From Vibrio sp. JC009 (GTDB lineage Bacteria > Pseudomonadota > Gammaproteobacteria > Enterobacterales > Vibrionaceae): a stretch of 64,000 nucleotides of DNA. The position numbers and the translations under genes are program-made. The notes under the pieces were generated by a model. It did not search any database. It saw only the letters and a program-made list of their open reading frames with translations, and was not told where the DNA came from. Positions 34,889 to 57,000 of this stretch are shown here, one piece after another. The stretch lies in the NCBI RefSeq assembly GCF_029016485.1, contig NZ_CP092107.1:992001-1056000 (forward strand), written 5' to 3'. Numbering within the stretch: position 1 is the first letter of the stretch; every line of letters starts with the position of its first letter.

Positions 34889-36517
34889 ATGGAAAATATT
34901 TGTAAACAAATAGCCGCAATGGAAATTGCTTTCGTTCTGATGGATAAAGACTGCACTGTATTAACAGCATCAGACAAAGCCGTACAACTATTCGGTTGCA
35001 AAGCGGGTAACTCTCTGTTTCAGGATAATAAGCTACAGTTTCTTAATCCGGATTATGAAAGCTACCCATTTGAATCTGAGTTGAGAGCACGTCTGGCAAA
35101 AACGCCATCTTCGGATATTGAGGTGGGAATTACCTCTGAAAGCTTCGCCATTAACTGGTACAGGGTGAAGTTAACCGGCTATGAAGACAATTATATTCTC
35201 TTTCTGGAAGATATTACCGAACTGGTAGGGACAAGACGCCTGAACAAACAGCTGTCTGAACGCGACTCTCATACCGGCCTGTTCTACAGGGAAGCCTTTC
35301 TGACCGAAATCAAGACTCATTATGATCAGGGTACGGTTTGCTGTATCCGCATCTGTAATTACCAGAGAATTAAAGAGATCTGGGGAACCGCTGTTGCCAA
35401 TCTGGTCTTTATGGAAATACTGGCACGGGTTCAGTCTGAATGGGAATACGCCATCTGCTGTAAACACTCCATAGACAGTTTTAATATTTTTGTTGATTCC
35501 GGACATGAGCTTGAGATTGAGCCGCTGTATAACCGCCTGAATGAGCCCTTTCATTTCAACGGACATAACTTTTTCAGCAATATCGCCCTTGGCTACTATC
35601 AGGAAAAAGAAGGTGATGAGCTGGAGCGGAGCCTGAACAAAGCTGAAATGGCGATACTGGATGTGATTGACAGCCGTCATCGTCTGGCAGAATTTCAGGA
35701 AGAGCTGGCCAGCCATATGGAGCATCAGACCCGGCTTGAAGCTACTTTCCAGCACGCCATAAACTCAGGCGCAATAGACGAACAGTTTGAAGTGGTTTTC
35801 CAGCCGCTGAATGATGAGAAGAGAGGCACGCCTGCCGGCGCCGAATGCCTGATGCGCTGGAAACTGGATGGCAGCTATGTTTCACCGGTGGAGTTTATTC
35901 CGATTGCAGAACGGCTGGGAGAGATTTCTGAACTGACTTACCTGACCATCCGCTCAATCGCCTCCATCATCAAAAAGATGCAAAACAGCGGTCTGGACTA
36001 CAATCAGTATATTTTTGCCGTCAATATCAGCGTGGTTGAGATATTAGATGTCGATTTTGTGGACAAGATCTGCAACTACATCAACAAACATCAGCTTAGC
36101 CCTAAACAGATAAAGCTGGAGCTTACTGAGTCGGCGTTTATTGATAATTTCAGCTATGTGAATTCTGTCCTGACCAAACTACAGCACAGAGGCTTCAGGA
36201 TATCCATTGATGACTTTGGTACCGGTTTTTCCAGTCTGAGCTACCTGTGCCGGCTGAATTTTGATGAGATAAAAATCGACAAATCCTTTGTTGACGATGT
36301 TGTCTCAAACAGAAAAATTCAGACCGTGTTCAATACCATAGTCTCTCTGGCCCAGAACCTGGACAAGCCGGTTGTAGCAGAAGGGGTTGAATACAGTGAC
36401 CAGCTAGCTTTCGCCAGAATAAAAGGCATTCAGTATGTGCAGGGGTATTATTACAGCAAGCCGCTAAGCAGTAATGATTTTGTCGAGTATCTGCTTGAAC
36501 ATCAGGTAACAGCTTAA
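34889..36517 (+). CDS. PAS / degenerate GGDEF / EAL phosphodiesterase
   Basis: 542 residues, no membrane helices. PAS-like region (about 1-115), a GGDEF fold with the active site lost (HSIDSF in its place), and an EAL domain (about 290-540) with the catalytic set: ECL in GAECLMRW, NIS, ELTES, DDFGTGFSS, KIDKSF, AEGVE and QGYYYSKPL. It should hydrolyse c-di-GMP. ATG 34889 has an AGAGG site; a TTG at 34883 was rejected. 22 bp after cheA 2, so it is the last gene of the module and links chemosensing to c-di-GMP. Confidence 0.9.
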   Translation: MENICKQIAAMEIAFVLMDKDCTVLTASDKAVQLFGCKAGNSLFQDNKLQFLNPDYESYPFESELRARLAKTPSSDIEVGITSESFAINWYRVKLTGYEDNYILFLEDITELVGTRRLNKQLSERDSHTGLFYREAFLTEIKTHYDQGTVCCIRICNYQRIKEIWGTAVANLVFMEILARVQSEWEYAICCKHSIDSFNIFVDSGHELEIEPLYNRLNEPFHFNGHNFFSNIALGYYQEKEGDELERSLNKAEMAILDVIDSRHRLAEFQEELASHMEHQTRLEATFQHAINSGAIDEQFEVVFQPLNDEKRGTPAGAECLMRWKLDGSYVSPVEFIPIAERLGEISELTYLTIRSIASIIKKMQNSGLDYNQYIFAVNISVVEILDVDFVDKICNYINKHQLSPKQIKLELTESAFIDNFSYVNSVLTKLQHRGFRISIDDFGTGFSSLSYLCRLNFDEIKIDKSFVDDVVSNRKIQTVFNTIVSLAQNLDKPVVAEGVEYSDQLAFARIKGIQYVQGYYYSKPLSSNDFVEYLLEHQVTA

Positions 36518-36550
36518 CTCCGGCACCTGGCAAACCTCAGCCAAAATCTC

Positions 36551-36575
36551 ATTCCCACGCCCACCGCGTGGGAAT
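36551..36575. terminator. Terminator / REP-like palindrome after the chemosensory locus
   Basis: 10-bp perfect stem ATTCCCACGC/GCGTGGGAAT with a 5-nt loop, between convergent genes. Sequences of this form recur in many gammaproteobacterial genomes, so it may be both a terminator and a dispersed repeat. Confidence 0.6.
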
Positions 36576-36616
36576 GTTTGTCTTAGCAACTACACAAGGC
36601 AGATAAAAGGCGCGAA

Positions 36617-37096
36617 CTAGACAATCTTCTCAGCAGAAACAATCACACCATCCGTATCTGCATATAAGTAATCACCGTTTTTCACTTCAATATCACCAAA
36701 GGCAAGGTCAACACCCTTTGCACCTTCAGTTAACGGGATGTATTTGCGCGAACAGGTACCTAACGCATACAGGGCTACCGGAATATCTTTGATCTGGAAG
36801 GTGTCTCTGATGTAGCCATTAACAACGATGCCTGAATAGTTGTTGTTTCTTGCAAACTTCATCAGGTTTTCACCCACCACGGCGTAGTATTCACGATCCA
36901 CATCAACCACAACAACTTTACCTGTGCCATCTTCGTCACGAAGCAGTTTGATCAGTTCCGAATTGTTCTTATCCAGTTTTACGGTTACGACTTCACCCTG
37001 ACATTTCTCAGCGCCACCGAAATTTGAATAACCAGGGCCTAAAACACTGACTCGTTCCGGGTACTCGTCACAGATATCTGCGGTAAAAAATTCCAT
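36617..37096 (-). CDS. RraA-family protein (HMG/CHA aldolase type)
   Basis: 159 residues, the size of RraA. Family marks: PGYSNFGGAEKCQGEVVTVK, VVVVDVDREYYAVVG and VVNGYIRDTFQIKD. The Arg-Asp pair in the last motif is the catalytic signature of 4-hydroxy-4-methyl-2-oxoglutarate / oxaloacetate-cleaving aldolases, whereas E. coli RraA has RQ there; the N-terminus (TADICDEYPERV) is nevertheless RraA-like. So it is either an RNase E inhibitor paralogue or a metal-dependent 2-keto acid lyase; I favour the latter. Divergent from the glutamate mutase operon with 229 bp between. A second family member is at 56344. Confidence 0.8.
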   Translation of the reverse strand: MEFFTADICDEYPERVSVLGPGYSNFGGAEKCQGEVVTVKLDKNNSELIKLLRDEDGTGKVVVVDVDREYYAVVGENLMKFARNNNYSGIVVNGYIRDTFQIKDIPVALYALGTCSRKYIPLTEGAKGVDLAFGDIEVKNGDYLYADTDGVIVSAEKIV

Positions 37097-37214
37097 ATAA
37101 ATTCCTTCCTTAATAGGTATTGGTCACTCCCGCATAATAGCACTCTGTGAACATTTTTTTACATCTTTTTTGAAATCATGTACGGTTACGCTACTTGGTC
37201 AAAAAAACACTAAA

Positions 37215-37292
37215 ACTCCCCATAAAAAGACTGCTTCAGAAGCCGTTCAGAGCAAGTCTGATTAAATATAAAAATAGACCATTCCGGGGAGT
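37215..37292 (+). promoter_or_regulatory. Structured leader of the glutamate mutase operon
   Basis: Outer 7-bp stem ACTCCCC/GGGGAGT closing 64 nt, inner pairs AGACT/AGTCT with GCT/AGC, and a competing GCTT-CAG-AAGC hairpin. It ends 33 nt before glmS, whose ribosome site is weak. It does not show a cobalamin-riboswitch B12 box. Possible cis-regulatory RNA. Confidence 0.4.
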
Positions 37293-37325
37293 CATAAACA
37301 CAGGATTTCAGGTTAAAAACACAAT

Positions 37326-37739
37326 ATGAAAGTAGTTACGGGCGTAGTCGGCAATGATATCCACGTTGTTGCTAACCGACTCATTGAACTCTCTCTCGAC
37401 GCCAGAGGCTATGAGGTGTTCAATTTAGGTGTAAATACGCACCTTGAAGAGTTCTTCGATGCCGTGGTGGAAACCGGGGCAGAAGTACTTTTGATCTCTT
37501 CACTTAACGGTGAGGCCGAAGGCTGGAGCCGTGAGGTCAGAGCGTTAAAATCCAAATACAAAGGATTAGATGATCTGATCATGATGATTGGCGGTAACCT
37601 GACCGTTGGTACCGGTGATCCGGAAGAGATTCAGGAAAAGTACAAAAAGTATGGCTTTGACCTGGTGTGTCACCAGGTAGACTTGAACGTCGGCCTTGAC
37701 CTTTTGGATGATTTAATAAGGGAGAGGAATTTAGCATGA
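37326..37739 (+). CDS. glmS: Glutamate mutase sigma (B12-binding) subunit
   Basis: 137 residues, the size of clostridial GlmS. It binds adenosylcobalamin with the axial His13 in GNDIHVVANRL, then LLISSLNGEAEG and IGGNLTVG as the other cofactor loops. The usual DxHxxG motif here reads DIHVVA, an Ala replacing Gly. With GlmE it rearranges L-glutamate to (2S,3S)-3-methylaspartate. Overlaps glmE by 4 bp. First gene of the four-gene operon glmS-glmE-mutL-ligase. Confidence 0.9.
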   Translation: MKVVTGVVGNDIHVVANRLIELSLDARGYEVFNLGVNTHLEEFFDAVVETGAEVLLISSLNGEAEGWSREVRALKSKYKGLDDLIMMIGGNLTVGTGDPEEIQEKYKKYGFDLVCHQVDLNVGLDLLDDLIRERNLA

Positions 37740-39100
37740 GCCTGCTTCAGGAAGAAAGAGAGATCATTTTAAGCAACGAATATGTCGACAACTTTGACTT
37801 CGACGAAGTAAAAGAATTTGTTGCCGGTGCCAGCAAAGAGCTGTTTATCTCTCACCATTTCAAAAACAAAAGCAAGATGTTAGTACAGCCACGTGGCGGC
37901 TTCCCTACTTATAAAAAACAGTTTGCCCTTAACGAATTTTTCGTCAATGCCAACGTTGATGTACTTCCGCTGACAATCGATTCCAACACACGTCTGAATG
38001 ACTACGGCACGGCGAAAAAGATGCTGCGCCTGAGTGAAGAGAACGATGTGGATATGCTGAACGGTTACCCGCTGGTGAACCACGGCTACCGTACTACGCG
38101 TAAGATGATTACCCACTTTAATAAGCCGGTCAGTCTGCGCCACGGTACGCCTGATGCGAGGCTGCTAACCGAAACGGCTATCGCTTCAGGTATCTTCGAG
38201 ATCGAAGGCGGACCTATTACCTATCTTCTGCCGTACTCAAAGAACTTCCCGCTGGATAAAGCCTTTATGTACTGGAAGTATGTAGAGCGCGTGTGTGCGA
38301 AATACTCTGAGCTTAACGCACCGATTAACCGTGAGTCCTTTGGCCCGCTTACAGCGACGCTTGTACCGCCGTCAATCACTATCGTTATCCAGCTTCTGGA
38401 AATGCTGCTTGCCCTTGAAGAAGGCGTAAAATCTTTCTCTGTCTCCTTCTCTCAGACCGGTTCTATGAATCAGGATATCGTGATGGGTGCGGTCATTAAG
38501 AAAATGGCAAGACACTATGCAGAATCTATTGGCTGCGGCGATGCTGCCATTCATCTGGTTTATCACCAGTGGATGGGCGCATTCCCGACCAATAAAAGTT
38601 ATGCAGAGCAGCTGATTAACATGTCTACCGTTATCGCCGCTATGGTTGGTGCAGATAAGATCATCACCAAGACCCGAGAAGAGGCGTCCGGTATTCCGAC
38701 GAAAGAAGCGAATGCAAAAACCGTTGCCGATACTCAGTACACGCTGGGCATTCTCAATGGCCTGCCTAATATTGTTGACGAACAGGAAGAAGAGATCCTG
38801 ACTGCCGAAGTGATGGCAATTATGGAAGCTGTGTTTAACGACCCGGCCGATACGCTGTGGCGTAAAGTCTTTAACTCCATCAAGTGTGGCATTATCGATG
38901 TGCCTTTCTCACCGCACATCATCAACCACAACAAGATGATCACCATCAGGGACGCCAATAAGAACATCCGCATCATTGATCGCGGCGGTGTGCCAATCCC
39001 TGATCGCTGCTTCGAGTACGAACGCTCGCAGTGCGACCTGAACAAAGACACCACCAGTATCGTTAGCGACATAATTCATGATATAGGCATTATGCAATGA
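37736..39100 (+). CDS. glmE: Glutamate mutase epsilon (catalytic) subunit
   Basis: 454 residues, somewhat shorter than clostridial GlmE (about 480). Substrate-binding residues can be placed by pattern: Arg53 (QPRGGFPTY), Arg86 (SNTRLNDY), Arg135 (RHGTPDAR) and Glu157 (EGGPITYLLPY), the last three at a constant offset of 14 from clostridial Arg100, Arg149 and Glu171. The loop reads EGGPITYLLPY instead of EGGGISYNIPY. Glutamate is the likely substrate, but the altered loop leaves room for a close analogue. Overlaps both neighbours by 4 bp. Confidence 0.92.
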   Translation: MSLLQEEREIILSNEYVDNFDFDEVKEFVAGASKELFISHHFKNKSKMLVQPRGGFPTYKKQFALNEFFVNANVDVLPLTIDSNTRLNDYGTAKKMLRLSEENDVDMLNGYPLVNHGYRTTRKMITHFNKPVSLRHGTPDARLLTETAIASGIFEIEGGPITYLLPYSKNFPLDKAFMYWKYVERVCAKYSELNAPINRESFGPLTATLVPPSITIVIQLLEMLLALEEGVKSFSVSFSQTGSMNQDIVMGAVIKKMARHYAESIGCGDAAIHLVYHQWMGAFPTNKSYAEQLINMSTVIAAMVGADKIITKTREEASGIPTKEANAKTVADTQYTLGILNGLPNIVDEQEEEILTAEVMAIMEAVFNDPADTLWRKVFNSIKCGIIDVPFSPHIINHNKMITIRDANKNIRIIDRGGVPIPDRCFEYERSQCDLNKDTTSIVSDIIHDIGIMQ

Positions 39101-40296
39101 GCCAGGAAAAACTATTTATCGACATCGGCAGTACCTACTTCAAGGTTTCCGACTCACAACATATCGAGCAGCACTTCAGGGATTTCAACAAAGACATCCT
39201 TGATGACCTGATGCAGAAATGCGGCACACGGGTGAGCCAGTTCAACCAAGACGATATCTATATCTGCTCTTCCGCAAATGGTGGCCTGAGCACGCTGATT
39301 ATTGGTGTGACAAACTCATTCTCGCTGAAGTACGCGACAAACATTGCCTTTAACTCAGGCATCAACATCATTGATACCATCCTGTATCAGAACATTGAAG
39401 ACTACTCTGTTCCAAGTGATCTGGTGGATGTGGTTATCGTGGTTGGCGGTGTAAACAGTAACGGCTCTATTTTTGGTGATGAGCTGTACAACTATCTGGA
39501 GCAGTTGAACTACTCCAACATTGTTTACGTGGGTAACGAGCAAGATGCTCAGTCTGTGGCTGAAAATGTAGAGAACCTGGTGACGCTGCCGAACATCATC
39601 GACAGCCGTCTTCATATTGTGGAAGAACACCTGAAAGAGTATCTGACCAACCTGTATCAGCAGGATATTGAAGGTAAAGAGGACATTAAGAGCCTGTACC
39701 AGATCACCTCTAATCAGATCTTCTCAACACCTTACATCGTAAATCAGGCGCTGCCTCATATTGATGCAGGCTACTCTGTGGTGGACCCGTTTATCGTGCT
39801 GGATATCGGTGGTGCAACGACGGATATCCACTACTCCAAAGATCTGGTTATCGATGAAAATATCGTAACCGAAAACGAATATGACCGTCTGGTATTCAAA
39901 AAACTGGGCGTGTACAAATCCAAACAGTCACTGATCTTTGCAGCGCAAAACAACGAGTTTGTTTATGAGCTGTTGATGCACCTGAAAGTGACGGAAAACA
40001 TCTTCGAAGAGCAGAGCGAAAAAGCCACCAAGATACTGATGCAGCTTGCTATCTTCCTGGTGCTCTGCAAAATTTCTCATTACCGTAAAGCCTATATCAA
40101 CCTGAAATTGCTGGCGATCAATTCTATAGTAATCACAGGTGGTATTACTAAAGTGCTTTCAGTTGAAGAGGTTGAAGACATCATCGCCTTCTTCTACAAG
40201 AAAATTATGACGTCGGAACATAAGCCTGTGACCATTATGGACAGCAACTATGATATCTGGACGTTAGGCGCAAAAGGAAAACTAGAATGTCAATAA
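39097..40296 (+). CDS. mutL: MutL-type reactivating factor for glutamate mutase
   Basis: 399 residues, an ASKHA-fold ATPase: phosphate-1 loop FIDIGSTYFKV near residue 7 and a second motif FIVLDIGGATTDIHYS near 232. MutL proteins found with glutamate mutase are thought to exchange damaged cobalamin, keeping the mutase active. Shorter than many MutL proteins (about 460). It is unrelated to the mismatch-repair MutL despite the name. Overlaps glmE by 4 bp and the ligase by 10 bp, so all four proteins are probably made together. Confidence 0.85.
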   Translation: MSQEKLFIDIGSTYFKVSDSQHIEQHFRDFNKDILDDLMQKCGTRVSQFNQDDIYICSSANGGLSTLIIGVTNSFSLKYATNIAFNSGINIIDTILYQNIEDYSVPSDLVDVVIVVGGVNSNGSIFGDELYNYLEQLNYSNIVYVGNEQDAQSVAENVENLVTLPNIIDSRLHIVEEHLKEYLTNLYQQDIEGKEDIKSLYQITSNQIFSTPYIVNQALPHIDAGYSVVDPFIVLDIGGATTDIHYSKDLVIDENIVTENEYDRLVFKKLGVYKSKQSLIFAAQNNEFVYELLMHLKVTENIFEEQSEKATKILMQLAIFLVLCKISHYRKAYINLKLLAINSIVITGGITKVLSVEEVEDIIAFFYKKIMTSEHKPVTIMDSNYDIWTLGAKGKLECQ

Positions 40297-41858
40297 ACTG
40301 TATCCGAACCCTGCTGGAAAGTGCCGTTAAGACACATGCGGATAAAACCGCTGTCACTTTGGACAGCAGCAAGGTTACCTACGCGGAGCTCTATAAAAAA
40401 GTCAATCAGGTCGCACTCTACCTGAAGGAACTGGACCTGCCTAAAGATTCACGAATCGGCATCTACTCCAATAAGCGGATTGAGCAGGTCATCGCCCAGC
40501 TTGCGATCCTTTCAACCGACTATATTCTGGTGCCGATGTCGAAAATGCTCAAGCCAGAGCAGGTGAATTACATCATCAAAGATTGCGATATCAAGTGCAT
40601 TATCACGGATAAAGCGAAGCTGGAAAGCCTTGATGAGATCAACTACGAAGGCCATGTCATCTCCTATGATATCGCCGGCAGCGAGATTGCTTCGTTTGAA
40701 GAGATCTACAAGTACTACAACAAACCTTACGAGTGCGACATCAGCGGGCACGACTCCGCAGTAATTACTTACTCCTTTGGCCTGTCAGGCACACCAAAGG
40801 GGATAGTTATCTCGCACCGTAACCTGATTGACTCAGCTCGTGTGGTTTCTCTGTATCTGAAACTGACTGAAGACGATGTTATCTCAGGCGTTCTGTTCTT
40901 CAATCTGGACTATGGCCTGAATCAGGTGTTCTGTAGCCTGTACAAGAAAGCGACCCTGGCACTGCACCGCTTTATCCTGCCGGATGAGTTCTTCAGCCAC
41001 CTTATTGACGATCAGGTGACGGTTCTTCCGGTTATGCCGGTTTACATCTCTCAGATGTTTGAAGAAGGCACAGCCCGTATTCCGAGCCCTGAACTGTTCG
41101 ACAAGGTTCGTATCATCACCTCTTCCGGCGGTAACGTTAACCGCAGAATGGTGGATGACTGTAAGCAGACTTTCCAGAAGGCTGACTTTTACTCAATGCA
41201 TGGTCTGACAGAGGCCTTCCGCTCTACTTACCTGGATCCGTCTCAGATTCAGATAAGACCGGAATCTATCGGTAAAGCGATCCCGGATGTGGAGCTTTAT
41301 GTCCTGAATGAAGAGGGCAAAGAGTGTGCACCACGTGAAGTGGGTGAGCTTATCCACCGTGGCGGCTATATCTACAAAGGCTACTGGAATGCACCGGAAG
41401 AGACAGCGGAACGTTATAAGTCGGTTTCTATCCTGAAGGATGCGATTAATCTTGAGGGCCAGCTGGTCGATGAACTTGTTGTGGCGACCGGCGATTATGT
41501 TTACCGCGATGAAGAGGGTTACCTCTACTTCGCCTATCGTAAAGATGACATGATCAAAACCCGCGGCTTCCGCGTTTCTCCGTATGAAATCGAATCGGTA
41601 GTAGCCAAGAACCTTCCGGATATCGACCGCTGCGCCGTATTCGGTATGGAAAACGAGCTTATCGAAGAGGAAGTGGTACTGGTTTACTCAGCACCAAGCC
41701 AGATCAGCGAAACTGAGATCCTGTTTGAGCTGAACAAACACCTGGCGTCCTACATGATCCCGGCCCGTATCGTTTACAAGAAGCACATGCCGCTTCTGCA
41801 AAATGATAAAAACCGGGTGAATAAGGAAGCACTGAAAGAAGAGCTGTCAGCCTATTAA
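40287..41858 (+). CDS. AMP-forming acyl/amino-acid ligase of the glutamate mutase operon
   Basis: 523 residues, ANL superfamily. Core motifs: a diverged P-loop (TYSFGLSGTPKGIVISH, normally YTSGTTGxPKG), HGLTEAF, ATGDYVYRDEEGYLY, the hinge KDDMIKTRGFRVSPYEIE, and a C-terminal NDKNRVNKEAL with the adenylation Lys. It would activate a carboxylate as its adenylate and pass it to CoA, a carrier thiol or an amine. No carrier-protein gene is in the operon. By position the likely acid is 3-methylaspartate or a product of it. The general look is close to D-alanyl-carrier and exosortase-associated ligases. Confidence 0.85.
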   Translation: MSINCIRTLLESAVKTHADKTAVTLDSSKVTYAELYKKVNQVALYLKELDLPKDSRIGIYSNKRIEQVIAQLAILSTDYILVPMSKMLKPEQVNYIIKDCDIKCIITDKAKLESLDEINYEGHVISYDIAGSEIASFEEIYKYYNKPYECDISGHDSAVITYSFGLSGTPKGIVISHRNLIDSARVVSLYLKLTEDDVISGVLFFNLDYGLNQVFCSLYKKATLALHRFILPDEFFSHLIDDQVTVLPVMPVYISQMFEEGTARIPSPELFDKVRIITSSGGNVNRRMVDDCKQTFQKADFYSMHGLTEAFRSTYLDPSQIQIRPESIGKAIPDVELYVLNEEGKECAPREVGELIHRGGYIYKGYWNAPEETAERYKSVSILKDAINLEGQLVDELVVATGDYVYRDEEGYLYFAYRKDDMIKTRGFRVSPYEIESVVAKNLPDIDRCAVFGMENELIEEEVVLVYSAPSQISETEILFELNKHLASYMIPARIVYKKHMPLLQNDKNRVNKEALKEELSAY

Positions 41859-41867
41859 CCTTTTATA

Positions 41868-42009
41868 GGGACAGGCACCTCAACTACGGGGACAGACACC
41901 TTAATTATGAGGAAAGGCACCTTAATCCTGTATTTATTAATTCGGACGCCAGCACCATGCTGGCGTTTTTATGGGGACAGGCACCTTAGTTACAAGGACA
42001 GACACCTTA
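41868..42009. repeat. REP-like repeat cluster 1 (five copies)
   Basis: Five direct copies of (G)GGACAGGCACCTTA or its GACAGACACC / GAAAGGCACC variants, at about 41868-41880, 41888-41903, 41910-41924, 41973-41988 and 41995-42009. They surround the ligase-operon terminator. The family is shared with clusters around the transposase at 43582 and further downstream. Confidence 0.85.
41947..41970 (+). terminator. Terminator of the glutamate mutase operon
   Basis: Perfect 8-bp stem CGCCAGCA/TGCTGGCG with a 3-nt loop and a following TTTTT. Confidence 0.88.
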
Positions 42010-42032
42010 TTAGGTATTCAACGGATTTCTAA

Positions 42033-43238
42033 TCAACCCAAAGCGGGCAAAACTCCTGCGGTGATCAAAAACTGCGCGGCAATAATAACAAAGCCGCTAC
42101 CAGCAGCCAGAGTCAGGCTCATGCCACCACCCTTTACTTGGTATAGGTTGTCATATGTTGCGTTGGAACGTGCTTTTTTCACCATAGCTACCGGCAAAAA
42201 GATCGCCAGAACCACAAGTGCAATCGCAGCGTAGCCTAACGCAGTAATAAACCCTTGCGGATAAAAAAGCGCGAAACACATCGGAGGCAGAAAGGTAACC
42301 AGTGCAGATAGAATGCGGTTCTGACTCTGTCCGCTTTTCTTCATCGAGTCACCAAGGAATTCAAACAGACCAAGGCTCACACCTAAAAATGAGGTCAGCA
42401 GTGCCAGGTCTGCAAAAATACCGATTATCTGACCCAATTTACCAAAGTGAATTTTCTCAGACAGTGCTCCGATAAGCCCTGTCAGCCCCTTATTATCAAA
42501 CAACTCCTGCTGACTGATCACCCCAAGCGTCACCGCCTGCCAGAACAGGTAAATAACCAAAGGGATAGCAGAACCGATAACGATAGCCTTCTTTAGAGAT
42601 CGGGTATCGCCATCCAGATAATTCACAATTGCCGGAATACTGCCGTGGAAACCAAACGAAGTAAAAATAACCGGAATAGCTGCAACAACCAGCCCCTTTT
42701 CCAGCGGCATGTTAAGCAGATAAGCTTCGGTGACATTAGGTGCAAGGAAAAAAAGTACTATAACCATTACCGCAAGCTTGGTTGCGAAGAGAAGCCGGTT
42801 AATACGGTCAACTGTTCCAGTACCGATAGTTACAACCGAAGCCACAATCAATGTAAAAATAACTGTCGCAGTCTGGTTGCTTATGGATATGCCCGACAGT
42901 TGCCCGATACGCTGTCCAAACTGAGCCCCGCCACCAGCAATATAAGCGGCGCACAGAGCATAAAACAGAAACAACATGGAAATACTGGCAATCCATTTAC
43001 CTCTGTTACCCAGAAACTGTTTTGCCAGAGTATGCAATGTGGCGCTAGCCGGAGCATGCTGATGCAATTCCAGCATCAATAATGCGGTATAGGTCATCAA
43101 AGCCCACAGCAGCAGCATCACCGCAAGAGAAGTAGTAAAGCCGATCCCGGCAGACGCGAGAGGAAGAGCAAGCATACCGGCACCAATTGTGGTACCCGCA
43201 ATGATCAGTGTGCTTCCAAGAACTTTTGAATTTAGCAT
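42033..43238 (-). CDS. tyrP: Aromatic amino acid permease (HAAAP family)
   Basis: 401 residues, about 11 membrane helices, with the family start IIAGTTIGAGMLALPLASAG and VIFTSFGFHGSIPAIVNYL. Members import tyrosine, tryptophan or phenylalanine with H+. TyrP is the closest by look; Mtr or TnaB-like specificity cannot be excluded. No good ribosome site precedes ATG 43238. It is convergent with the glutamate mutase operon and bracketed by REP-like repeats on both sides. Confidence 0.85.
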   Translation of the reverse strand: MLNSKVLGSTLIIAGTTIGAGMLALPLASAGIGFTTSLAVMLLLWALMTYTALLMLELHQHAPASATLHTLAKQFLGNRGKWIASISMLFLFYALCAAYIAGGGAQFGQRIGQLSGISISNQTATVIFTLIVASVVTIGTGTVDRINRLLFATKLAVMVIVLFFLAPNVTEAYLLNMPLEKGLVVAAIPVIFTSFGFHGSIPAIVNYLDGDTRSLKKAIVIGSAIPLVIYLFWQAVTLGVISQQELFDNKGLTGLIGALSEKIHFGKLGQIIGIFADLALLTSFLGVSLGLFEFLGDSMKKSGQSQNRILSALVTFLPPMCFALFYPQGFITALGYAAIALVVLAIFLPVAMVKKARSNATYDNLYQVKGGGMSLTLAAGSGFVIIAAQFLITAGVLPALG

Positions 43239-43581: not shown

Positions 43582-44535
43582 TTAAGTTAAGGAGTACCCA
43601 ACAACCCTATGTCGATTAAGCTCAGGAATTGCTCTTTCAATACTCCGTTTGTGGCCAACCAATAAAGCGCGCTTACATTCGAGACAGGTACATATTTGTA
43701 ACCATTCGCTCTGTTCAGATTTTAGTCGCTCCAAAATCGGAGGTAGACTATTATCAATACTCATCTTACCTTCCCGAAGTTGCCGCCCGGTCCAATCGAC
43801 TAATTCAATATAGTCCATCAAACGAAATGGTATTCCTTCCGCATTAGTCCTGCTTCCTGCAAAAGGATACAATCCTGCGGGTGTTGCTTTTGTTTCGATT
43901 AAATTATCTATCCGCTCTTTGATCGAAGTATGCTCAGATTTTTCCGGAGTTTCTGCTTCACCCGCCCGAACCGGATTTAAATCAACGTAGGCCATGGCTG
44001 CCAGTACTGCTTTATCATCGACCAAAGCCTGACTCTTAAAGCGACTCTCCCAGAAATGCCCTCTACATTCGTCTTCCAGGTTGGCTTTTTTAGCTATATC
44101 CATATTGAGCTCTTTCATAAACCAGCTTAGATTGAACAAACGTTCACGCCAATCATCAATGATAGCCTGAGCTTTTAGATATTCTGTTTCAGATTTCAGT
44201 TCTCTGCTTAGAAGTCGCTGAATTAATACAGGTTGATGATGCTGAGATGACCAGCGCTCAATAACCTCCACATCTGATAATGCTTTAGCTTTTTTTCTAT
44301 TGAGGTGCACCACTAGGTGATAATGATTACTCATAACTGCATAGGCGCAAATATCAATACAGTACATCATCGATAGCTCTTTGATACGGGCTTCTATCCA
44401 TTCTCTGCGGTGTTCATAGCAACGCTGTGACTGAGCATCGTATCCACATAAATAGGTCCTGCGTACACAACGGGAAACACAGTGATAATAAGAGGTTACA
44501 TTGGGGTTTACCTGCTGGCTTCTGGCTGTAGTCAT
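43582..44535 (-). mobile_element. REP-associated transposase (RAYT, Y1_Tnp family)
   Basis: 317-residue protein with the IS200/REP transposase fold: YYHCVSRCVRRTYLCG, the HUH motif His71-Tyr-His73 in VMSNHYHLVVHLN, RGHFWESRFKSQ and AYVDLNPVRAG. I could not place the catalytic Tyr at its usual spot (LNMDIAKKAN has Asp). ATG 44535 is favoured by AGGTGA. RAYTs act on short palindromic repeats instead of IS ends; matching repeats flank it on both sides in opposite orientation. It is probably a domesticated single-copy gene. Confidence 0.85.
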
Positions 44536-44656
44536 AGTGGTCACCTAAATAGAAAACGCCATAAATGGTATCTGTTTTAGGTAAGAATTAATTTTTTGAT
44601 TCAGTAGGTTACGAGCCAAAGAACATAAATCTGCAATAAGGCGGTCATGTTGCATC

Positions 44657-56343: not shown

Positions 56344-57000
56344 ATGTATAGCAAAGAAATCATTGACGGATACCGCGAAATCTTCTCAACCGCATCCATT
56401 GCAGATGCCTGTGATCTGCTGTTAGGCAAAACAATGTACCTGCCTTTTGATGTAAAAAACCGTATCAATGAAAAGAAAATTGTTGGCCCTGCTGTAACCA
56501 TCGTAGAAGAAGCAACACTGGAAAAAGTGGCTCCTCAGCATGCGCTTGATGCTATCGATGAATCAAACGAAGGCAGCGTTATCGTTATCTCTGGTGACGC
56601 TGCACTGGAAACAGTTGCAGTATGGGGCGGTCTGATGACAGCTGGTGCAGTAGCAAACAAACACGAAGGTGCCGTTCTTAACGGCGGTATGCGTGATATC
56701 GCTGAGATCCGTCGTGACTACGACTTCCCTGTTTACGCAAAAACAATTTCACCGGGTACCACTCTTGGCCGTTTCAAAACTGTAGCAGCGAACAAGCCGG
56801 TACAGATTGGTGAAGCACTGATCCGTCCGGGAGACCTGATTATCGGTGACGTTGACGGCGTAGTTTGTGTTCCTCAGGAGCATGTAGAAGCGGTGCTTCG
56901 TGAATCTCAGTCTATCGATTCACGCGAACTTGAGCAGGCGCAACTTATCATCCAGAGCGGCTCTCTTCGCGAAGGTCTGGCTAAGTACGGCCGTATTTAA
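56344..57000 (+). CDS. RraA-family aldolase/decarboxylase-like protein
   Basis: 218 residues, the longer form of the RraA fold (dimethylmenaquinone methyltransferase-like in old annotation). Marks: SIADACDLL, AAVWGGLMTAGAV-type segment, and the catalytic VLNGGMRDIAEIRRDYDFPV with Arg-Asp, then GDLIIGDVDGVVCVPQE. Such proteins act as metal-dependent aldolases giving pyruvate, or as oxaloacetate-type decarboxylases. Between the dehydrogenase and a sugar-acid kinase, a lyase or epimerase-like role on a 2-keto acid is likely; the substrate is unknown. Confidence 0.83.
   Translation: MYSKEIIDGYREIFSTASIADACDLLLGKTMYLPFDVKNRINEKKIVGPAVTIVEEATLEKVAPQHALDAIDESNEGSVIVISGDAALETVAVWGGLMTAGAVANKHEGAVLNGGMRDIAEIRRDYDFPVYAKTISPGTTLGRFKTVAANKPVQIGEALIRPGDLIIGDVDGVVCVPQEHVEAVLRESQSIDSRELEQAQLIIQSGSLREGLAKYGRI

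Follow-up and report, generated by a model that had tools for sequence, protein, structure and literature searches.

A recurrent cassette of glutamate mutase, a VinN-like ANL enzyme and an RraA-like protein in Vibrio sp. JC009 and other bacteria

What could a Vibrio gain from glutamate mutase genes that overlap a gene for an AMP-binding enzyme, with no carrier protein encoded nearby? This question is raised by a 64,000-nucleotide stretch of the Vibrio sp. JC009 genome (RefSeq GCF_029016485.1, contig NZ_CP092107.1, forward-strand positions 992,001 to 1,056,000; hereafter the window). In it, glmS, glmE, glmL and a gene for an ANL (AMP-binding) enzyme, here called LIG, adjoin a divergent gene for an RraA-like protein, RRA. 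We interpret this cassette, with confidence that is evenly balanced, as an accessory biosynthetic module that would make 3-methylaspartate and pass it to the VinN-like ANL enzyme. The broader proposal is tentative and in our judgment doubtful: an undescribed B12-dependent pathway of mostly marine bacteria, in which 3-methylaspartate would be neither fermented nor destined for an antibiotic, and in which a VinN-related enzyme, its ATP site remodelled, and a dedicated RraA-family enzyme would carry out a new, carrier-independent reaction.

The four genes on the plus strand encode the B12-binding subunit of glutamate mutase (glmS, 37326..37739, 137 amino acids [aa]; NF002612, 146.6 bits, cut-off 110; homologous to 1be1 and 1i9c), its catalytic subunit (glmE, 37736..39100, 454 aa; PF06368 [Met_asp_mut_E], 391.9 bits, cut-off 26.6), a glmL/mutL-type reactivating factor (39097..40296, 399 aa; PF13941 [MutL], 91.1 bits) and LIG (40287..41858, 523 aa; PF00501, 211.6 bits, cut-off 29.9). 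Successive genes overlap by 4, 4 and 10 bp. A preliminary description of this DNA had given exactly these open reading frames and overlaps of 4 to 10 bp, and profile searches confirm its family assignments. It had also spoken of a fused operon confined to 37326..41858. The genes are instead adjacent and unfused, and the block runs on leftward into RRA (36617..37096, minus strand, 159 aa), divergent from glmS. RRA and the aminotransferase described below were not foreseen there. Taken together, the earlier observation is confirmed and its interpretation is partly supported.

The product of the mutase is the firmest part of the picture. We take Arg66, Arg100, Arg149, Glu171, Tyr177, Tyr181, Lys326 and Glu330, with their roles, to make up the active site of the Clostridium glutamate mutase. 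By hand count in an alignment with that solved enzyme, all eight are identical in the window GlmE, so 3-methylaspartate is the expected product. Judged from these sequences, GlmS and GlmE would almost certainly turn glutamate into L-threo-3-methylaspartate with coenzyme B12, and GlmL would reactivate the mutase. The window GlmS carries the motif DIHVVA, in which D-x-H presumably supplies the cobalamin histidine of the B12-binding subunit and the final Gly is replaced by Ala. Three further models score below their cut-offs, namely, TIGR01503 for GlmE (375.1 bits, just short of 390.1), TIGR01501 for GlmS (90.2 versus 135.8 bits) and the equivalog NF040745 for GlmL (76.1 versus 475 bits). Met_asp_mut_E matches only once in the JC009 genome (5.21 Mb, three contigs), and the GlmE entries closest to the window protein are from Vibrio.

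The four-gene block, which the preliminary description had proposed to seek in other genomes, recurs, little altered, in bacteria that are only distant relatives of one another and mostly marine. A scan of species-representative genomes returned 212 GlmE relatives, the best 80 of which were kept as loci, giving 81 with the window. In the 80 further loci, GlmE shows 81 to 94% identity. They comprise Gammaproteobacteria (Vibrio, Colwellia, Thalassotalea, Neptuniibacter, Amphritea, Reinekea, Haliea and kin, and Granulosicoccaceae), betaproteobacterial bins, Campylobacterota (Sulfurimonas, Arcobacter and kin) and one Rhodothermales bin. By tblastn at a minimum of 45% identity, glmS was found in all 81 loci, glmL in 80, the ligase in 77 and RRA in 70. 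Four loci lack the ligase and one (L059) has part of it; since the contig ends at this point in all five, the ligase is complete in 75 of 76 testable loci, the exception being a truncated copy (L005). Of the 75 loci with calls for both glmL and the ligase, 65 likewise show a 4-bp glmE/glmL overlap. At 264 of the 454 GlmE columns, at least 98% of the 69 aligned members carry the identical residue.

In the sampled groups, cassette-type GlmE and RRA, and likewise GlmE and the ligase, are either both present or both absent. Of 296 Vibrionaceae, 3 have cassette-type GlmE, and exactly these 3 have cassette-type RRA; two others in this set carry a different mutase (36% identical) and lack cassette-type RRA. 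Among 369 Gammaproteobacteria, the ligase (E ≤ 1e-100) was detected in four and GlmE (E ≤ 1e-60) in the same four, one of them a fragment, and neither was found alone. Over the 18 kb compared, the window and two other Vibrio genomes (G257 and G261) have the cassette in common and no flanking gene, and the GlmE of uncultured Vibrio locus L010 (from genome G257) groups with Reinekea (support, 100/95) in a tree of the 69 of 81 sequences that measured 440 to 470 aa, 12 being dropped. These two observations fit repeated acquisition of an accessory unit. GC content provides no hint of a recent arrival in JC009, being the same in the cassette (0.462) as in the window (0.465). The GlmE tree does not prove transfer between phyla: it requires four label changes where the minimum is two, and more than one change is no proof.

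Another Vibrionaceae genus offers a second, unlike combination of glutamate mutase and a ligase (locus L153, 5253-9314, on G144:C2). There, GlmS and GlmE are fused in one 634-aa protein, which directly follows an ATP-grasp protein (Dala_Dala_lig_C) and precedes a weak methyltransferase match; the upstream gene looks transporter-like by eye. A similar frame of 641 aa is present in genome G162.

The substrate pocket of LIG would link the ANL enzyme to the mutase product. When the pocket region alone is compared with the PDB, VinN (3wv4 and 3wvn) ranks first. In VinN, Asp230 serves to bind 3-methylaspartate, which is held as a beta-amino acid, and the other named pocket residues are Phe231, Ser299, Lys330 and Arg331 (PMC11253843). 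In the alignment, Asp230-Phe231, which contact the substrate amino group and form a bulky pocket wall (PMC11253843), correspond to Asp208-Tyr209 of LIG (40908..40913, plus strand), Ser299 to Ser280 (41124..41126, plus strand) and Lys330-Arg331 to Phe311-Arg312 (41217..41222, plus strand). Asp208, Ser280 and Arg312 are thus identical, Tyr209 is conservative and Phe311 differs, and each of the five is invariant in 73 of 73 family members. This pocket is good evidence, and no proof, that LIG would act on an acidic beta-amino acid. It favors the earlier proposal that 3-methylaspartate is made and then directly activated as far as the substrate is concerned; the altered ATP motifs, which the earlier description did not foresee, leave the other half of that proposal, plain adenylation, uncertain.

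Several observations weigh against LIG as an ATP-dependent 3-methylaspartate ligase and against the module as a whole. Compared at full length with the PDB, LIG matches linear gramicidin and tyrocidine synthetases best, with VinN ninth. SlgN1, a further 3-methylaspartate enzyme of solved structure, which is noted to bind the compound in the opposite orientation (PMC11253843), is absent among the PDB matches listed for either the full-length protein or the pocket region. The position of VinN Lys330 is occupied by Phe. An AlphaFold model of LIG was too poor for a pocket test (mean pLDDT, 65.7; residues 322 to 430 below 50), and no fold or pocket claim made here draws on it. The A3 (P-loop) motif, SFGLSGTPKG (40773..40802, plus strand), departs from the canonical consensus (S/T)(S/T/G)G(S/T)TGxPK (PMC8388817), and the variant YSFG[LMIV][ST]GxPxG is found in 75 of 75 members, which is unexpected for an ATP-using ligase. 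Equally unexpected, the A10 lysine, which is reported to stabilize adenylation (PMC11253843), is variable within the family. It is Lys508 in the window copy under the HMMER alignment (A10 region DKNRVNK, 41805..41825, plus strand), whereas, of the 73 members, 13 have R, N, Q or E instead and 11 carry no lysine at either 508 or 510, both plausible A10 positions. No linked acceptor, export or condensation gene was found at the cassette loci. Finally, the rarity of the cassette in the sampled groups (3 of 296 Vibrionaceae and 4 of 369 Gammaproteobacteria), the truncated ligase of L005 and the exceptions for RRA described below count against the simple picture.

The ATP-site changes suggest that the ANL enzyme may no longer adenylate with ATP. 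It could bind 3-methylaspartate together with AMP or a thioester and carry out another reaction, or it could assist the mutase by sensing its product or by channelling. The canonical Ser is replaced by Phe164 in 73 of 73 members and the following Ser/Thr by Leu, Met, Ile or Val at position 166 in all, which, with the variation at position 508, speaks for such a change. So do the retention of the A8 (thiolation) lysine, Lys424 (41556..41558, plus strand; K in 72 of 73 members and X in the remaining one), and the canonical motifs of two exosortase-type relatives, whose A3 reads YTSGSTGKPKG. Against it, the threonine, the two glycines and the proline of A3, at which mutations have been measured in an aryl-CoA ligase (PMC8388817), have retained or conservative counterparts in Ser163, Gly165, Gly168 and Pro170; at the last measured position, 6 of 73 members have Asn in place of the lysine. 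This pattern points to an ATP site that is remodelled and not plainly dead. The window copy keeps Lys508, and a mean column identity of 81% over 53 members argues for a working protein, although identity alone does not specify which reaction it performs. We regard the loss of ATP-dependent adenylation as unlikely.

If LIG does activate 3-methylaspartate, an acceptor is needed. The statement of the preliminary description that no carrier protein is present holds for the surroundings of the cassette and fails for the genome, where PP-binding matches occur at three other places; one of them lies in a 986-aa frame with a match to the ligase as well. This frame, the VinN-like pocket and the occurrence of more than one PP-binding match in 12 of 19 cassette-bearing genomes would suit a scheme like that of vicenistatin biosynthesis, in which a carrier with a distant gene receives 3-methylaspartate for incorporation into a natural product. 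The other 7 of 19 have a single match, presumably AcpP, so a dedicated carrier does not belong to the system in general, and the earlier suggestion of transfer to a distant carrier protein is weakened for the same reason. We take TIGR03099 as a model of the VinO-like decarboxylase. Since TIGR03099, TIGR01124 and PF07476 also match common paralogues, presence was judged by their cut-offs, and TIGR03099 exceeded its own in only 2 of 24 cassette-bearing genomes; a VinO-type partner was accordingly rejected. Downstream of the ligase, a gene was called in 71 of 75 loci. In 12 loci, all from Arcobacter kin, the first such gene belongs to a small cytochrome-like family; any other family takes this place in at most two. 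No family therefore recurs beside the ligase across groups, and a conserved downstream acceptor gene was likewise rejected. Loading on a distant carrier is, in our view, quite improbable.

Ordinary glutamate fermentation via mesaconate, of which the mutase is the first enzyme (PMC4682846), could in principle proceed with an unlinked methylaspartate ammonia-lyase. No MAAL_C match was found in the JC009 genome at E ≤ 0.001, in keeping with the earlier statement that the lyase is lacking, and fermentation by this route is contradicted for this genome. Over 24 cassette-bearing genomes, MAAL_C exceeded its cut-off in 4, with one strong match (364 bits) and three partial ones (28 to 39 bits). We give this explanation almost no credence.

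The divergent partner RRA is found in 23 of 23 cassette-bearing genomes at 52 to 100% identity, also where it is not adjacent to the cassette; in one (G002), it is split over two frames, possibly by a sequencing error. Inside the loci, tblastn at the 45% threshold did not find it in 11 of 81. Ten of these are titled as Sulfurimonas, Arcobacter kin or other Campylobacterales, and the eleventh (L059) groups with them. Three Arcobacter-like genomes have two RraA-like copies each (G015, 52 and 47% identical to the cassette RRA; G016, 57 and 51%; G020, 55 and 43%). The first copy lies beside the cassette in G016 and G020; in G015, the best copy is on another contig and neither is beside the cassette as far as the locus shows. 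The window itself holds a second RraA-like/aldolase domain at 56401-56871 (plus strand), about 30% identical to RRA.

RRA has the fold and the Arg-Asp pair of the RraA/HMG-CHA aldolase family, the pair being Arg97-Asp98 by motif (codons 36803-36808). HMG/CHA aldolase, an enzyme of the RraA fold, decarboxylates oxaloacetate (PMC5065237). The proposed activity of RRA is drawn from the fold and these two residues, both of which are also common to the ordinary RraA of P. aeruginosa, and the RRA score of 136.1 barely exceeds the cut-off (136) of NF006875, a model for RraA as RNase E regulator; these points belong with those weighed above against the module. The RraA_entero model gives 99.3 bits versus a cut-off of 241.25. 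The second partner, present in 33 of 81 loci and with over 90% coverage in 31 of these, is an aminotransferase, assigned to the PRK09257 group from two tested members; it usually lies just past RRA and convergent with it. At the genome level, the cassette-type enzyme (74 to 100% identity) occurs in 15 of 25 carriers of the cassette (15 of 20 gammaproteobacterial and 0 of 5 Campylobacterota), and in none of five hand-picked Vibrio genomes without the cassette, whose best matches reach 48 to 50%. JC009 lacks it (best match, 52%). The enzyme of genome G257 is 100% identical to that of uncultured Vibrio L010.

These partners might serve a different purpose, namely, a threonine-independent route to 2-oxobutyrate in which glutamate would be converted to 3-methylaspartate and then, by transamination, to 3-methyloxaloacetate, RRA would decarboxylate the latter and the product would feed isoleucine synthesis, with the ANL enzyme as a side activity or sensor. 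Each of the three chemistries has a cassette-linked candidate, the oxaloacetate decarboxylation by a relative of RRA provides a precedent, and a glutamate mutase route is counted among at least nine routes to 2-ketobutyrate (PMC7476758). However, 23 of 23 cassette-bearing genomes searched gave a threonine dehydratase match, which exceeds the TIGR01124 cut-off in 18 and falls below it in five, all Campylobacterota (326 to 331 bits), so a need for the route through a missing dehydratase was rejected. The ligase, as constant as the mutase, is left unexplained, and the cassette-type aminotransferase is missing in 10 of 25 carriers, JC009 included. We consider this route improbable as the main purpose of the cassette.

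The accessory-module reading may be spelled out as follows. GlmS and GlmE would isomerize glutamate and GlmL would keep the mutase active. Like VinN, the ANL enzyme would treat the resulting 3-methylaspartate as a beta-amino acid when binding it, and would probably activate its beta-carboxylate. The acceptor would not be a dedicated carrier protein and would most likely be CoA or a small amine. The equilibrium of glutamate mutase is unfavorable, and the ANL step would pull it. Where RRA and the aminotransferase are present, they may act on the same substrate, transamination yielding 3-methyloxaloacetate and decarboxylation 2-oxobutyrate; this is the weakest step of the scheme.

The mutase is about 90% identical between Vibrio and Sulfurimonas and has the same ANL and RraA-like partners wherever testable, which points to a product of value; we found no paper naming it. 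The cassette thus offers a further candidate role for B12 and a concrete substrate to test for RraA-family proteins. With proteins of ordinary size that lend themselves to single assays, the question is directly testable.

The two divergent units share the intergenic region 37097..37325, between the RRA and glmS open reading frames. No Rfam match was obtained in 36400-42100 at E ≤ 1, and a riboswitch was therefore rejected. In the 28 of 81 loci that could be anchored at both starts, 8-mers of an extended -10-like word, TGCTAGAAT, occur in up to 12 RRA/glmS intergenic regions, that of the window not among them. On the downstream side, past the cassette and a TyrP-like permease, 43582-44544 (minus strand) gives a weak match to a REP-associated tyrosine (IS200-like) transposase (45.4 bits, cut-off 80).

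Among known systems, vicenistatin biosynthesis already couples glutamate mutase to a 3-methylaspartate-adenylating enzyme (PMC11284099), so the pairing itself is not new. For the carrier-less form spread over several phyla, inherited together with RRA and having an altered ATP site, we found no description in a full-text search that was judged by titles and the starts of abstracts and had most subscription journals outside its reach. The vicenistatin starter genes encode glutamate mutase (VinH/VinI), an adenylation enzyme (VinN), a carrier (VinL) and a decarboxylase (VinO) (PMC11284099, PMC11253843). The cassette resembles them in having the mutase and a stand-alone VinN-like enzyme. It differs in lacking a linked carrier, decarboxylase, second adenylation enzyme and polyketide synthase, in its RraA-like and aminotransferase partners, and in the altered A3 and A10 motifs and the change from Lys330 to Phe.

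With the methylaspartate fermentation cluster of Clostridia and O157 E. coli (glmS, glmL, glmE, mal and mesaconase; PMC4682846), the cassette shares the glmS/glmE/glmL core. In contrast to that cluster, it has no ammonia-lyase match and adds the ANL enzyme and the RraA-like protein. A glutamate mutase pathway of isoleucine biosynthesis would require a mutase, a transaminase and a methyloxaloacetate decarboxylase; such a pathway was reportedly described by Abramsky et al. in 1962 (cited in PMC7476758). The cassette offers candidates for all three, whereas its carriers also have threonine dehydratase matches and the ligase finds no place in the pathway.

The closest NCBIfam model to LIG is that of the exosortase A ligases, TIGR03098, which it matches below the cut-off (433.8 versus 592.35 bits). 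Two members of that family, from exosortase-A type loci of two cassette-bearing genomes (L090 and L091), share the DYG and TEAFRST motifs with LIG at 32 to 34% identity. Unlike LIG, they keep canonical A3 and A10 motifs, and no exosortase A locus was seen here. In both of these loci, the ligase adjoins a decarboxylase that exceeds the TIGR03099 cut-off. By sequence, these two ligases may load an aspartate-type beta-amino acid, and the cassette hints that exosortase-A ligases more generally may also handle such a substrate.

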